From Prevotella sp. UBA4341 (GTDB lineage Bacteria; Bacteroidota; Bacteroidia; Bacteroidales; Bacteroidaceae), in NCBI GenBank assembly GCA_002393705.1, contig DGTH01000076.1, positions 8,165 to 18,191 of the forward strand: a stretch of 10,027 nt of DNA, read 5' to 3'. The notes under the pieces were generated by a model, which saw only the letters and a list, made by a program, of their open reading frames with translations, searched no databases and was not told the origin of the DNA. This document shows, piece after piece, positions 1 to 4,921 of the stretch. Position 1 is the stretch's first letter. The number at the start of each line of letters is the position of its first letter. The translations under genes and the position numbers were made by a program.

Positions 1-48
1 CCCCGAGAGCCTCTCCCCCGACCCCTCTCCCAAGGAGAGGGGGGATTA
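1..48. repeat. Family B GC-rich hairpin repeat, copy 1 (at window edge)
   Basis: This matches 721-768 at 47 of 48 bases; the single difference is at position 7. Its core is a perfect hairpin, CCCCTCTCC (22-30), loop CAA, GGAGAGGGG (34-42), 21 bp in all. It is preceded by a CTCTCCCCCGA-type unit. It lies in frame in the MFS gene, immediately after the predicted ninth membrane segment, and encodes IPPLLGRGVGGEALG. The left boundary is cut by the window. Confidence 0.9.
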
Positions 49-1081
49 GGGTGAAGACTAACATGAGCAGGAGGCCCTTGAGCCAGCCGGTCCACTGGCA
101 GAGAAAACCGCCGAAGGCCTTGCCCAGCATGGCCACCGTGGCAGCCATGAGCACGGCCCACGTGCCCGTGCCTAAAGCCTGCGTGAACACCGTACTGACG
201 CCAGAACGGAAAGCGACGAAGAGGAGGAGGAACCCCACCCAAACTCCCCAAAGGAGAGGAGTGGTTTCTTTTCGAGGTACGAGGTGCGAGGTACGAGGTA
301 CGGTTTCTTTTCGAGGTACGAGGTACGAGGTACGAGGTACGAGATGACCTTGCACGCCCTCCTCTGCCTCCGAACTATTCTCGTACCTCGCACCTCGTAC
401 CTCGCACCTCGAAGAATCCTCGCACCTCGAAGAATCCTCGTACCTCGCACCTCGTACCTCGCACCTCGAAGAATCCGCGCACCTCGAAGAATCCACGTAC
501 CTCGAAGAAACAAGACAATACGCCAACAGCATGACCATGAGCAGGGGCACAGAGGCGTAGAGCATGCCGACGGCCAAGCCGAGGGCTCCGGTAGAAACGA
601 AGATGCCAAGGGCGCGCATGTCGTTACCCGTGGTCACGGCCACCTGTTTGCCGCCCCAGGTGTGGAAAAGACTGTTGCCAAGGCCGAGGAAGAAGGCCGC
701 GACTCCCCCGAAAGCCTCTCCCCCGACAGCCTCTCCCCCGACCCCTCTCCCAAGGAGAGGGGGGATTATGAGGAGGGCTACGGCTATGGTCAACAGGAGC
801 ATGGAGGCTAAGAGCTGCCAGTGCTTGTGAGCAATGCGGTCGGCCAGCCAGCCCGTCAGGGGCTGCGTCAGGAAGGCCAGCACGTTGTAGAGTATGAAGA
901 CCCAAAGCAGGTCGCCCAAGCCGCCAGACCTGAGCAGCAGGTACAGCGAACAGGCACACACCCCGTCAACCAGGAAGTGCTGCAGGGCCAACAGGCCCAC
1001 AGCGTACCACGCGCCGCGAACCATCCCCGCACCTCGTACCTCGTGCCTCGTACCTCGTAGTTCGGAAAATCGTTGCTTCAT
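1..1081 (-). CDS. MFS-type membrane transporter, 3' end beyond the window, carrying in-frame repeat insertions
   Basis: The minus frame is open from an upstream stop near 1108 to the left edge: about 360 codons with no in-frame stop, checked line by line. Outside the repeats it reads as a multi-pass transporter. TM1 follows GAWYAVGLLALQHFLV, TM2 is around LLWVFILYNVLAFLTQPLTG ending in the WLADR motif typical of MFS loop 2-3, and TM3 is around LLASMLLLTIAVALLI. TM4-6 follow (FFLGLGNSLFHTWGG, ALGIFVSTGALGLAVG, LLMVMLLAYCLV), then TM7-9 of the second half (WGVWVGFLLLFVAF, AVLMAATVAMLGKAFGG, LLLMLVFTL). Repeat-derived residues lie at about 1-19, 105-126, 191-273 and from 345. Starts at 1087 (ATG ACA ATG), 1081 or 1024 are possible; 1024 begins MVRGAWYAV just after the first repeat and may be the ancestral start. 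The substrate is not recognisable. A decaying pseudogene cannot be excluded, but no frameshift or stop is seen. Confidence 0.72.
   Translation of the reverse strand, partial: MKQRFSELRGTRHEVRGAGMVRGAWYAVGLLALQHFLVDGVCACSLYLLLRSGGLGDLLWVFILYNVLAFLTQPLTGWLADRIAHKHWQLLASMLLLTIAVALLIIPPLLGRGVGGEAVGGEAFGGVAAFFLGLGNSLFHTWGGKQVAVTTGNDMRALGIFVSTGALGLAVGMLYASVPLLMVMLLAYCLVSSRYVDSSRCADSSRCEVRGARYEDSSRCEDSSRCEVRGARYENSSEAEEGVQGHLVPRTSYLVPRKETVPRTSHLVPRKETTPLLWGVWVGFLLLFVAFRSGVSTVFTQALGTGTWAVLMAATVAMLGKAFGGFLCQWTGWLKGLLLMLVFTLIPPLLGRGVGGEALG
263..509. repeat. Family A heptamer array (CGAGGTA)n in both orientations, inside the MFS gene
   Basis: The basic unit is the heptamer CGAGGTA or CGAGGTG. Left part: two 39-bp tandem units (263-301 and 302-340), each GGTTTCTTTT followed by four heptamers. 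Right part: the inverse orientation (TACCTCG/CACCTCG) joined by GAAGAATC spacers, with an identical 39-bp block at 380-418 and 437-475. Positions 312-343 and 380-411 form a near-perfect inverted repeat (30 of 32 pairs) around a 36-nt loop. The array encodes about 82 residues in frame between the predicted TM6 and TM7, where MFS proteins have their long central cytoplasmic loop. Confidence 0.92.
706..768. repeat. Family B GC-rich hairpin repeat, copy 2, with tandem 15-bp units
   Basis: This is the second copy of the element at 1-48, exactly 720 bp away and therefore in the same codon phase. The perfect 9-bp stems are at 742-750 and 754-762. On the left it has extra tandem units of the form CCCCCGA(A/C)AGCCTCT, about 15 bp each. 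In the MFS gene it encodes a Gly/Glu-rich segment (GRGVGGEAVGGEAFGG) between the predicted TM3 and TM4. Confidence 0.9.
1028..1060. repeat. Family A heptamer array at the 5' end of the MFS gene
   Basis: Four heptamers (CGCACCT, CGTACCT, CGTGCCT, CGTACCT on the plus strand) and a partial fifth. They lie between the upstream ATGs (1081/1087) and the internal ATG at 1024 of the minus-strand MFS gene. They are therefore either the 5' leader or a short N-terminal extension reading RGTRHEVRGAG. The frame is open through the array. Confidence 0.88.
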
Positions 1082-1095
1082 TGTCATCGTATTTG

Positions 1096-1191: not shown

Positions 1192-3141
1192 ATGAAGAAG
1201 ACCCTTACCACCCTCGTGCTGCTCGCGGCCATGCTCGCGGCAACGGCACAAACGCGCACCGTCACGTCGCCCGACGGCCACCTCACGATGACCGTCAGCC
1301 TGGCCGACGGACGGGCTACCTACTCGATTGCCTACGACGGCCACACCATGCTGGAACCGTCGGCCCTCGGACTTGAGACGAGCATGGGCGACTTTACCCA
1401 AGGGCTCAGGCTCGACGGCTTTGACGAACAGCCCGTCAGCTGGCGCTACACCCTGCGCCAGGGCAAGAAGAGAGACATCAGCTTCGAGGCCCGCCGGCTG
1501 GCCGTGAACGTGCAGAACCAGAAGCGCCAGCCCATGACCATCGAGTTCTACGTAGCCAATAACGACGTGGCCTTCCGCTACCTGCTGCCCCAGACGGGCG
1601 ACACGGCTTGCGTCACCATAGACCGCGAGACCACGGCCTTCCGGCTGCCCGCCGAGACTACCACATTCCTGACACCGCAGAGCGACCCCATGGTGGGCTG
1701 GATGCAGTCGAAACCCAGCTACGAGGAGGAGTACCGGCCGGACCGCCCCCTGAGCGAGCGCTCGCAGTTTGGCCACGGCTACACCTTCCCCTGTCTGTTC
1801 CGCATGGGCCAGAAGGGCTGGCTGCTCTTGAGCGAGACGGGCACGGACGGCCGCTACCCTGGCTGCCGGCTGAGCGACTGGAGCGAGCGTGAGGGCTACA
1901 CCGTCAGCTTCCCCATGGAGGGCGAGTGCCGGGGCTGGGGCAGCAGCACCGCCGCCATGGTGCTGCCGGGGGCCACGGCCTTCCGCACCATCACCGTGGG
2001 CAGCACGCTAAGCCCCATCGTCGAGACTACCATAGCCACCGACGTGGTGGAGCCGAAGTACGAGCCGTCGTGCGACTATAAGGCCGGCCGCTACACCTGG
2101 TCGTGGCTCGTCTGGCAGGACGAGTCCATCAACTGGGACGACCAGGTGCAGTTCATCGACGTAGCCTCGGCCATGGGCTTCGAGTACTGTCTGGTTGACT
2201 GCGCGTGGGACCAGAACATAGGCTACGAGCGCATGGAGCAGCTCGCGGCCTACGCCCGAGGGAAGGGCGTAAGCCTGCTCTTGTGGTACAACAGCAACGG
2301 CTTCGGCAACGATGCGCCACAGACGCCGAAGCACAAGATGAGCACCAGCGCCGCAAGGCGCAAGGAGATGGCGTGGCTCAAGAGCATCGGCGCGGCCGGC
2401 ATCAAGGTAGATTTCTTCCAGGGCGACAAGCAGCACACCATGCAGCTCTACGAAGACATACTCCGCGACGCCAACGACTTCGGCCTGCAGGTCATCTTCC
2501 ACGGCTGCACGCTGCCCCGTGGCTGGGAGCGCATGTTCCCCAACTTCGTGGCTGCCGAGGCCGTGCTGGCCAGCGAGAACGTCTATTTCACCGACTACCA
2601 CGCCCAGAAGGAGGCCTTCGAACTGACCATGCACCCCTTCTGCCGCAACGCCGTAGCCTCCATGGACTGGGGCGGAACCATCATGAACCAGTACCTCTCG
2701 AAGGACAACAAGAGCCGCCACAAGCGCTACACCACCGACACCTTCGAGATGGCCGCCGCCATCACCATACAGACCAGCCTGCAGTGCATAGCCATGCAGC
2801 CTAACAACCTCACTGACCTGCCGCAGCACGAGCGCGACCTGCTGAGCCGCGTACCCACCACGTGGCAGCAGACGCGCCTGCTCGAGGGCTACCCCGGGCG
2901 CTACGTCCTGCTGGCCCGCCAGAGCAGCGCGGGGCGCTGGTACGTGGCCGGCCTCAATGCTGAGGGCGAAGCCCGCGAGCTGACCGTCAGCCTGCCCGAA
3001 CTGGCAGGACAGGCCGTCAACTACTACTACGACGACGCACGCAAGGGTCCGCAGCTCAGACAGCTCACCGTAAGCAAGAAGGGCACGGCCCGCGTCACGC
3101 TGCAGCCCAACGGCGGCATCATTCTGGAGCAGGCTCAGTAG
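1192..3141 (+). CDS. Secreted glycoside hydrolase family 97, probably a retaining alpha-galactosidase
   Basis: A 649-residue protein starting at the ATG of MKKTLTTL. The open frame reaches back to a TTG at 1153, but that lies in the putative promoter, and only 1192 gives a clean signal peptide (cleavage probably after Ala19, ATA|QT). There is no lipobox, so it is likely periplasmic. Residues of about 20-290 fit the N-terminal beta-sandwich, 290-560 the (beta/alpha)8 barrel (WSWLVWQDESINWDDQ, VDCAWDQNIGYERM, GIKVDFFQGD), and the rest the C-terminal beta domain. Asp407 in KVDFF and Glu462 in LASEN are 55 residues apart. This is the same spacing as the nucleophile and acid/base I recall for the retaining B. 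thetaiotaomicron alpha-galactosidase (Asp415/Glu470). Inverting SusB-type alpha-glucosidases lack the Asp and are longer (about 738 aa). Family membership is firm; the substrate is inference. It would release sugars from oligosaccharides in the periplasm, and the divergent MFS gene is a possible partner for uptake. Confidence 0.9.
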   Translation: MKKTLTTLVLLAAMLAATAQTRTVTSPDGHLTMTVSLADGRATYSIAYDGHTMLEPSALGLETSMGDFTQGLRLDGFDEQPVSWRYTLRQGKKRDISFEARRLAVNVQNQKRQPMTIEFYVANNDVAFRYLLPQTGDTACVTIDRETTAFRLPAETTTFLTPQSDPMVGWMQSKPSYEEEYRPDRPLSERSQFGHGYTFPCLFRMGQKGWLLLSETGTDGRYPGCRLSDWSEREGYTVSFPMEGECRGWGSSTAAMVLPGATAFRTITVGSTLSPIVETTIATDVVEPKYEPSCDYKAGRYTWSWLVWQDESINWDDQVQFIDVASAMGFEYCLVDCAWDQNIGYERMEQLAAYARGKGVSLLLWYNSNGFGNDAPQTPKHKMSTSAARRKEMAWLKSIGAAGIKVDFFQGDKQHTMQLYEDILRDANDFGLQVIFHGCTLPRGWERMFPNFVAAEAVLASENVYFTDYHAQKEAFELTMHPFCRNAVASMDWGGTIMNQYLSKDNKSRHKRYTTDTFEMAAAITIQTSLQCIAMQPNNLTDLPQHERDLLSRVPTTWQQTRLLEGYPGRYVLLARQSSAGRWYVAGLNAEGEARELTVSLPELAGQAVNYYYDDARKGPQLRQLTVSKKGTARVTLQPNGGIILEQAQ

Positions 3142-4823
3142 GCCTGCTCGTGCACACCTCTGACAGCACGCCCGCTGGGGTCGTCAAGCCCCCGGAAGGC
3201 AGCATCCCACTCTAACGCCGTGGCGGTAGAGCAAGCCACGCTGACCTCGCTCGGCACGCTGCGGGCCGCCGAGTCGCTGGGGAAGTGTTCGGCAAAGATG
3301 GAGCGGTAGTAGTACTCCTCCTTGTTACGCGGCGGGTTAATGGGGAAGCGCTCAGCCGCCCTGGCCATCTGCTCATCGGTGACGGCCTCGGCGGTCAGCT
3401 GCTTGAGCGAGTCAATCCAGGAGTAGCCTACGCCGTCAGAAAACTGTTCCTTCTGTCGCCAGGCCACCTCGGGTGGCAGCAGGTGGGCAAAGGCTTCACG
3501 CAGGATGCGCTTCTCTATAGCTCCGTACCTCGTACCCCGTACCTCGGACTCCGCCGAACGGCACATCTTGGCCTCAGGGTTCAGCCGCATGGCCACGTCG
3601 AGAAACTCCTTGTCCAAGAAGGGCACGCGGCCCTCCACGCCCCAGGCCGCAAGACTCTTGTTTGCCCGCAGACAGTCGTAGAGGTGCAGCTTGGAGAGCT
3701 TGCGCACGGTCTCCTCGTGGAAGTCGCGGGCCGAGGGCGCTTTGTGGAAGTAGAGGTAGCCGCCAAACACCTCGTCGGCACCCTCGCCCGAGAGCACCAT
3801 CTTGATGCCCATGGACTTGATGACGCGGGCCAGCAGATACATGGGCGTAGAGGCACGCACAGTAGTCACGTCGTAGGTCTCAATGAAGTAAATCACGTCG
3901 CGCAGGGCGTCAAGCCCCTCCTGAATGGTGTAGTTGATTTCGTGATGCACGGTGCCGATGTGGTCAGCCACGAGGCGCGCTTTCTGCAGGTCAGGGGCAC
4001 CCTTCAGGCCAACGGCAAAACTGTGCAGGCGGGGCCAGTAGGCGCGCGTCTGGGAGTTGTCTTCTATGCGGTGCTCGCTAAACCGCTCGGCAATGGCCGA
4101 AATGATGCTCGAGTCCAAGCCCCCGCTGAGCAGCACGCCGTAGGGCACGTCGCTCATGAGCTGCCGACGGACGGCAGCCTCCAGTGCGTCGCGGACGGCC
4201 TCGCTGCTGGCTTCGTTGTCCTTTACGGCGTCGTAGCTGAACCAGTCGCGGTGGTAATATCTTCTTAACTCTCCACTCCAAAGATAGTGGCCCGGCGGGA
4301 AAGGCTCGTAACGCTCACACTGGCCCTCAAGGGCTTTCAGTTCGCTGGCCACATAGACGGTGCCGTCAGCGTCGTAGCCTATATAAAGCGGAATGACGCC
4401 TATGGGGTCGCGGGCTACGAGGAAGGCATCCTTCGCCTCGTCGTAAAGCACGAAGGCGAAGATGCCGTTGAGGTCTTCGAGAAAGCGGGTGCCTTTTTCG
4501 CGGTAGAGCGTCAGGATAACCTCGCAGTCGCTACCCGTCTGGAAGTCGTAACGCCCGTGGTACTGCTGGCGCAGGAGCTGATGATTGTAGATTTCGCCAT
4601 TGACGGCCAACACCTGTTTCTTATCAGGCGAATACAGGGGCTGACCGCCCGACTCCGGATCGACGATGCTCAGACGCTCATGGGCGAGGATGGCACTACC
4701 GCCACAATAGATGCCGCTCCAGTCGGGGCCACGATGGCGTATTTTCTGACTCATGCGCAGGGCTTTCTCGCGGAGTGCCTGCGACTGTTGCTTCACGTTT
4801 AGAATTGCTACTATTCCACACAT
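3135..4823 (-). CDS. asnB: Asparagine synthetase B, glutamine-hydrolysing
   Basis: A 562-residue cytoplasmic enzyme converting aspartate, glutamine and ATP to asparagine, glutamate, AMP and PPi. The start gives MCG, so after Met removal Cys2 is the N-terminal nucleophile of the class II glutaminase domain (about 2-190; RHRGPD 29-34, NGEIYN 75-80). The synthetase domain has the pyrophosphate loop SGGLDSS at 233-239, SGEGADEVFGGY at 345-356 and GRVPFLD at 398-404. The carboxy end (SVACSTATALEWD, DPSGRAV) closely resembles E. coli AsnB (554 aa). Odd feature: between KMC (419-421) and IEK there is a segment about 10 residues longer than in E. coli, and its EVRGTRY (427-433) is encoded by three copies of the heptamer repeat. 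It is the last gene of the minus-strand nitrogen cluster, 101 bp after the PurF-like gene. Its stop lies inside the end of the convergent GH97 gene (7-bp overlap). Confidence 0.96.
   Translation of the reverse strand: MCGIVAILNVKQQSQALREKALRMSQKIRHRGPDWSGIYCGGSAILAHERLSIVDPESGGQPLYSPDKKQVLAVNGEIYNHQLLRQQYHGRYDFQTGSDCEVILTLYREKGTRFLEDLNGIFAFVLYDEAKDAFLVARDPIGVIPLYIGYDADGTVYVASELKALEGQCERYEPFPPGHYLWSGELRRYYHRDWFSYDAVKDNEASSEAVRDALEAAVRRQLMSDVPYGVLLSGGLDSSIISAIAERFSEHRIEDNSQTRAYWPRLHSFAVGLKGAPDLQKARLVADHIGTVHHEINYTIQEGLDALRDVIYFIETYDVTTVRASTPMYLLARVIKSMGIKMVLSGEGADEVFGGYLYFHKAPSARDFHEETVRKLSKLHLYDCLRANKSLAAWGVEGRVPFLDKEFLDVAMRLNPEAKMCRSAESEVRGTRYGAIEKRILREAFAHLLPPEVAWRQKEQFSDGVGYSWIDSLKQLTAEAVTDEQMARAAERFPINPPRNKEEYYYRSIFAEHFPSDSAARSVPSEVSVACSTATALEWDAAFRGLDDPSGRAVRGVHEQAY
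3525..3545. repeat. Family A heptamer repeat (three units, 21 bp) inside asnB
   Basis: Three 7-bp units (GTACCTC, GTACCCC, GTACCTC on the plus strand) lie exactly in codon phase and encode EVRGTRY, AsnB residues 427-433. The same unit builds the arrays at 263-509 and 1028-1060. The flanks (CTCC on the left, GGACTCC on the right) are not heptamer units. Confidence 0.88.
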
Positions 4824-4830
4824 AATACAT

Positions 4831-4921
4831 ATTTACGATTTACGGATTTTCGATTTTCGATTGATTGGGCAATTGACATAAACTAATTTACGATTTACGG
4901 ATTTTCGATTTTCGATTGATT
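4831..4921. repeat. Family C AT-rich heptamer repeat, two 36-bp copies between the PurF-like gene and asnB
   Basis: Identical 36-bp copies lie at 4831-4866 and 4886-4921, separated by 19 bp. Each is itself built of heptamers: ATTTACG twice, G, ATTTTCG twice, then ATTGATT. It fills nearly all of the 101-bp spacer, starting 4 bp after the PurF-like stop codon and ending 8 bp before the asnB start. I see no TAnnTTTG box or terminator-like hairpin with a T run in this spacer, so it is not clear whether asnB has its own promoter. Confidence 0.93.

Follow-up and report, generated by a model that had tools for sequence, protein, structure and literature searches.

The transporter gene at the left end of the window is very probably one host of a dispersed, palindromic, coding-competent element of rumen Prevotellaceae, whose in-frame copies have been kept and whose frame-breaking copies have been removed. 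The window, the whole stretch of 10,027 nucleotides analyzed here, corresponds to positions 8165-18191 of contig C55 of genome G000 (DGTH01000076.1), an assembly of 194 contigs that is 62% complete. The initial annotation described "simple-repeat insertions" in this gene; tandem repeats are present, but the term falls short of a structured element that is palindromic and built around a core. The repeats of the transporter are copies of elements dispersed in many genes of several species and are not private to it. As the sequences read, the in-gene repeats are probably translated as extra flexible loops, with predicted host/repeat junction peptides such as those around ENSSEAEEGVQG and NLVPRTSHLAPR.

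The minus-strand frame from 1087 to 1, which had been reported as free of stops, was confirmed by a frame check, and its stop lay beyond the window, as had also been proposed; in the whole contig the frame closed at L031 7557 and comprised 564 codons in total. No break was found between the window and L031 7557, although continuity depends on the assembler's size for a 63-N scaffold gap (L031 8102-8164) located within the gene immediately to the left of the window. An identical 21-nt stretch of a 15-nt-type repeat flanked this gap on both sides. The heptamers GTACGAG and GTGCGAG contain no stop in any of the six frames by construction; therefore, an open frame alone is weak evidence over a heptamer array. 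The informative point, as judged from sequence, is that conserved coding sequence flanks the repeats in one frame on both sides. The features referred to below were as follows.

1..1024, minus strand: window part of the MFS-type transporter gene, with a likely ATG at 1024-1022 and the stop at L031 7557 (from homologues and the predicted model)
1025..1087, minus strand: in-frame upstream extension with a heptamer array at 1031-1059 (TRF), probably outside the protein and not present in homologues
703..762, minus strand: 15-nt array (703-751) and hairpin CCCCTCTCCCAAGGAGAGGGG (742-762), coding for PPLLGRGVGGEAVGGEAF in the loop after helix 88-111
263..509, minus strand: heptamer element with expansions of 18, 39, and 57 nt, coding for the greater part of the TM6-TM7 loop
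344..379, minus strand: 36-nt element core between inverted heptamer arms, coding for NSSEAEEGVQGH in the frame of the gene
22..42, minus strand: second hairpin copy, from which 15-nt-type units run leftward to and past the scaffold gap
3525..3545, minus strand: heptamer-coded EVRGTRY in asnB (gene 3135-4823), inside a 10-residue in-frame insertion

The identification as an MFS-type transporter was supported by many homologues that carry PF07690 and by the fold matches of the predicted model, all of which were transporters; on the other hand, these matches were weak (best E 0.024, none at or below 0.001), and Pfam MFS_1 scored 24.1 bits on the window fragment, under its cut-off of 33.4. A rough whole-gene Nei-Gojobori comparison with G222, one of six comparisons and with repeat columns counted, gave a dN of 0.30 and a dS of 0.88, a sign of purifying selection on the transporter. 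The C-terminal membrane domain of about 112 residues was a separate ORF adjacent to the transporter in five relatives (L002-L006), in four of which both ORFs shared one frame with a single stop between them. A hairpin repeat is present at the junction in G000. The hairpin repeat was ruled out as the cause of this fusion because P0014 and P0015 are fused without that repeat; both forms occur within the genus.

Three of the four repeat regions that had been reported in the gene, namely the first hairpin region at 703-762, the large heptamer-repeat loop between TM6 and TM7, and the second hairpin at 22-42, were all recovered within coding sequence. The N-terminal heptamer array was also found, at 1031-1059, but not as a coding repeat: homologues lacked residues 3-21, and the closest homologue began at the equivalent of residue 22, which is the ATG at 1024-1022. 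This array probably lies upstream of the true start, where it would not be coding. One further hairpin repeat of the gene was located left of the window (L062 position 1235). Tandem periods within the gene (TRF) were 7, 14, 15, 18, 39, and 57 nt, and those of 15, 18, 39, and 57 nt are whole codons, unlike 7 and 14.

The homologue comparison covered 16 aligned proteins of 120 listed. P0002 (466 aa, 96% identity) matched the membrane segments and had a much shorter repeat-coded TM6-TM7 loop; the aligned members of P0003-P0013 likewise had a repeat-coded loop at this position that was shorter than in the window protein, and P0014 and P0015 had no heptamer repeat in that loop. In an alignment of 68 sequences, residues 3-21, 116-120, 202-236, 242-256, and 266-270 of the window protein, which are its repeat stretches, were missing from most homologues. 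As had been predicted, homologues thus largely matched the membrane segments and lacked the repeat residues, except that the N-terminal array is probably upstream of the start and that some homologues carry shorter repeat-coded loops. The placement of the repeats outside the membrane segments held, as the alignments put repeat-coded residues in gaps that separate conserved membrane segments. Structure prediction for the window protein (mean pLDDT 73.4) gave helices on both sides of a stretch with pLDDT below 50 (residues 219-271), which covers the bulk of the central repeat loop; residues 112-122, from the first hairpin, were unstructured. The G222 orthologue had a heptamer-coded loop at the same TM6-TM7 place; insertion there may therefore be old. 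Homologues that lack the heptamer (P0017, P0027, P0036, and P0245) often had low-complexity residues of another kind in the corresponding loops, e.g., SPLTTHHSPLTTHL.

The element often consists of a plus-strand heptamer array followed by a minus-strand array, with a short core between them. The arm heptamer is GTRCGAG, and the arms form an inverted pair that can be written as (CGAGGTR)n and (YACCTCG)n. In the hydrophilic reading, the arms code for EVRGTRYE and LVPRTSYL and the core for N(S/T)S...GN. As RNA, the window copy had a folding energy of -157.9 kcal/mol, whereas shuffled sequences averaged -88.3 (z -14.2). An outer-end motif adjoined arrays, by coordinates, at twelve sites in G000; both outer ends, alike in inverted orientation, were found in seven of 15 copies listed, and some intergenic copies had conserved ends. 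These outer ends contain stops and were absent from the window copy and the compared in-gene copies. Inspection by eye of the flanks of copies with outer ends revealed no clear direct repeat that would represent a target-site duplication.

Exact array sites numbered 199 in G000 (control 0), with 56 array starts. In 39 loci, 48 array clusters were found; five clusters were at sequence edges, leaving 43 to be scored by a codon model that was correct for 55/55 chunks taken from the genes it was trained on. Where both flanks were open on one strand with a score of at least 0, the frame agreed in 11/11 clusters, the chance expectation being one third. Because the thresholds were picked after the scores had been seen, five are reported: agreement was 15/16 without a threshold, 10/10 at 0.04, 8/8 at 0.1, and 6/6 at 0.15. 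The remaining clusters were intergenic, at gene ends, or unclear. Ten host ORFs were scanned for domains. The dnaG, rsmA (two elements), and queA hosts each exceeded an NCBIfam cut-off (TIGR01391, TIGR00755, and TIGR00113, respectively), and others, assigned by Pfam or below NCBIfam cut-offs, included a RecD2-like helicase, a U32 peptidase, a Uup-like C-terminal domain, a WbqC protein, a GH43 enzyme, a THUMP-like protein, and a cellobiose-epimerase-like protein with only six repeat residues. Within the window, asnB aligned along its length with E. coli AsnB (PDB 1ct9), and the sole insertion of more than one residue was the 10-residue insertion that includes EVRGTRY. Two near copies of ATTTACGGATTTTCGATTTTCGATTGATT, another dispersed intergenic repeat, were observed between asnB and the next gene (about 4830-4920), and a sequence similar to ATTTACGGATTTTCGATTTTCGATTGATT flanks an element in L303.

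Such dispersal bears on the possibility that no element moves at all and that slippage repeats of several kinds that fit loops build up in place. Relatives do have low-complexity sequence of other kinds in these loops, and the arms are tandem arrays; however, within a single genome the same core occurs both in unrelated genes and between genes, which slippage cannot produce, and some intergenic copies have conserved outer ends. In-place slippage is consequently considered extremely unlikely, and a dispersing element is preferred.

The same behavior was seen in six other genomes. A search of nine heptamer-rich genomes with a pattern blind to length modulo 3 yielded 49 elements from six of them; no canonical core was found with this pattern in the heptamer-rich genomes G231, G222, and G197. 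Elements were of 11 lengths (32, 35, 38, 43, 44, 45, 46, 47, 50, 53, and 62), and length equaled 2 modulo 3 in 44/49 elements and in 36/39 distinct strings (binomial p 1.9e-14), distinct strings being counted because copies common to related genomes are not independent. In flank-frame calls made without a score threshold, the left flank coded in the core-set frame in 38/49 elements (both flanks in 34, the left alone in four), with a median ORF of 516.5 codons. None of these 38 broke the length rule, vs. five of the 11 others (Fisher p 2.4e-4); three of the five rule-breakers came from G116, with a length of 45, only the right flank in frame, and negative scores. The elements at L270, L318, and L271 were in host genes read from the opposite strand; L270 and L318 share a core and are probably a single site, so that the three possibly represent two independent cases and count against a single orientation. 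The canonical frame had no stop in any of the 36 distinct cores, compared with 40% of shuffled cores. Stop-freeness was not unique to this frame, as frame -1 was nearly as stop-free (a stop in 1/36 cores). With a mean hydropathy of -1.32, the canonical frame was more hydrophilic than four other frames in 36, 34, 35, and 29 of 36 cores, and the fifth alternative frame had a stop in every core. Selection for frame, which had been suggested for the transporter, is thus backed by the frame agreement and length rule of elements outside that gene as well.

These patterns also weigh on the idea that the hairpins are skipped by translational bypassing or RNA excision, so that the protein would lack the loop. 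The hairpin is strong, and bypassed palindromes have a precedent in a yeast mitochondrion, according to the accessible text of PMC6649704. Nevertheless, DNA that is skipped needs neither a frame, nor a codon-step length, nor a stop-free hydrophilic frame, and all three were observed, which makes skipping highly improbable compared with translation of the inserts.

Differences between alleles were found in rsmA, whose G000 copy was the sole match in its own genome and which matched in 36 of 39 other genomes searched. Among 11 aligned relatives, ten had no insert at site 1 and G022 had a different one; the site 2 element occurred in 0/11. Of 120 database proteins listed, 14, picked partly for extra length, were aligned. 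One of them, P0122, was 99% identical to the G000 protein outside gaps and lacked element 1, a difference of whole codons, and its element 2 was shorter by 6 and 7 residues. P0122 and P0242-P0244 are database entries without a source and so may depend on G000, and the absence of element 1 from P0122 may reflect repeat collapse in its assembly. Element-like inserts of other lengths, in some cases built from a variant heptamer, occupied the same loop in several other rsmA proteins. P0144, P0153, and P0154 carried a variant arm family in that loop, with the peptide RNEEGGT / LVPRSSFLLPR. For dnaG, 18 homologues of 120 listed were aligned; the G000 element recurred in three listed proteins on separate contigs, and the other 15 had a linker of different content there, sometimes as long. 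Accordingly, the element at this site took over a variable linker, which argues against pure insertion at the site and favors the view that elements survive in tolerant linkers.

The rsmA alleles speak to a contingency switch, in which gain or loss of 7-nt units would toggle host genes. Seven is not a multiple of three, so single-unit slippage shifts the frame; however, the hosts include replication and ribosome-modification genes, the higher-order periods of 15, 18, 39, and 57 nt are whole codons, and the rsmA alleles also differ by whole codons. We give this alternative very little credence. The dnaG proteins bear in turn on an assembly artefact, whereby repeats would have been wrongly joined into genes of a fragmented metagenome-assembled genome. 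The incompleteness of G000 (62%, 194 contigs) and the scaffold gap adjoining the transporter would suit this explanation. It is nonetheless very unlikely, as the dnaG insert is repeated in those three proteins, similar inserts exist in genomes of other species, and codon-step lengths are not expected from random stitching. The element reading remains preferred over both.

Across the genus, 21 of 299 genomes had at least one exact array site and 14 had at least 10; a reversed-pattern control gave 0 in most genomes, yet 19 in G222. Named genome contigs held at least 113 array stretches, many in rumen Prevotella MAGs. Other array carriers among the matches listed were Gammaproteobacteria, Streptomyces, Planctomycetota, and more, whereas arm-core-arm elements, as identified by a regular expression, were, among these matches, confined to records of Prevotella or Prevotellaceae. 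Arrays of plain GTGCGAG or GTACGAG were noted in Billgrantia, Imhoffiella, Photobacterium, Streptomyces, and Marinobacterium (L078, L104, L109, L129, L134, and others). No Y1 transposase (Y1_Tnp) was detected in the 62% of G000 that is assembled, and the family was present in 155/299 genus genomes; Y1 transposase as the mover is not supported. Viral contigs contained no exact match of the one pattern used for a phage vehicle.

The hairpin CCCCTCTCCCAAGGAGAGGGG represents a second family; when up to three mismatches were allowed, it occurred at 13 distinct places in G000 (control 1). With a looser pattern, seven of 13 sites tested had the same coding frame on both sides, namely three in the transporter gene and one each on C32, C77, C25, and C151, and the other six did not; the CCCCTCTCCCAAGGAGAGGGG place on C86 was outside this test. 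In L031 (1330-3897 and 3999-6548), L065, and L070, proteins end in SLTPAL(T/S)EGEGVYYDLSGRRV..., where the SLTPALxEGEG part looks hairpin-repeat-coded and directly precedes a conserved C-terminal stretch.

We infer from these observations that the element moves by copy and paste, reaching many new genomic sites. Copies that survive within genes would be those that fall in a flexible loop or linker and are oriented and phased so as to code for a hydrophilic peptide, and frame-breaking copies would be purged by purifying selection on the host. The insert would then persist as a translated loop, and later expansion or loss would be filtered for whole codons. A further proposal, to which we assign an even chance, is that the core itself has evolved under protein-level selection to make a suitably flexible loop. 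Such a translated mobile linker would enter core genes harmlessly and add or remove loops in essential proteins of several species, and its variable cores would amount to a natural library of tolerated protein inserts. Selection by the host only, i.e., plain survivorship, would also fit the present sequence data.

Coding palindromes have so far been described mainly in the intracellular bacteria Rickettsia and Wolbachia and in an archaeon, as far as the accessible literature goes, and the present hosts are rumen Bacteroidota; a literature search that most subscription papers lay beyond found no comparable element in Prevotella or Bacteroidota. In Prevotella, genes of replication, of the ribosome, and of tRNA modification are among the hosts; a genome can carry many copies, the cores vary, and near-identical proteins differ in their alleles. 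These natural alleles make protein lengthening by selfish DNA testable. Gene calling and domain searches may mis-describe proteins with such inserts.

Several known systems resemble the Prevotella element in part. The Correia/NEMIS elements of Neisseria have, in the accessible text of PMC2229807, a contiguous-frame form within ORFs and a longer, stop-rich form between genes; Prevotella copies with TIR-like ends likewise lie between genes, and, compared with that description, differ in their tandem heptamer arms. PARCEL are palindromic amphipathic repeat coding sequences that form intragenic tandem repeats, according to the part of PMC2996958 available; they share palindromic DNA that codes for protein, whereas most Prevotella copies are single inserts, located in genes unrelated to one another. 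In Magnusiomyces capitatus, mitochondrial genes are also interrupted by palindromes, which stay untranslated in the account excerpted from PMC6649704, whereas the Prevotella copies keep frame and codon-step length. The closest parallel in behavior is with the Rickettsia palindromic elements (RPE), described in the accessible portions of PMC2229807 and PMC10969869 as palindromes of 105-146 bp inserted in frame in conserved genes, with activity retained in guanylate kinase, the one host enzyme tested; PMC2996958, as available in part, also cites coding palindromes of Wolbachia and Methanocaldococcus jannaschii. Like these, as far as those texts describe them, the Prevotella element is palindromic, dispersed, and peptide-coding, with a long stem-loop (z -14.2) between inverted arms and with both intergenic copies and in-frame copies in conserved genes. 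In contrast to RPE, it resides in free-living Bacteroidota, and the named arm-core-arm carriers are rumen Prevotella or Prevotellaceae MAGs rather than Rickettsia; its arms are 7-nt tandem arrays, its cores vary in codon steps, and its arrays expand inside genes. By analogy of behavior, not of sequence, the Prevotella element appears to work like an RPE and is not classed as one.
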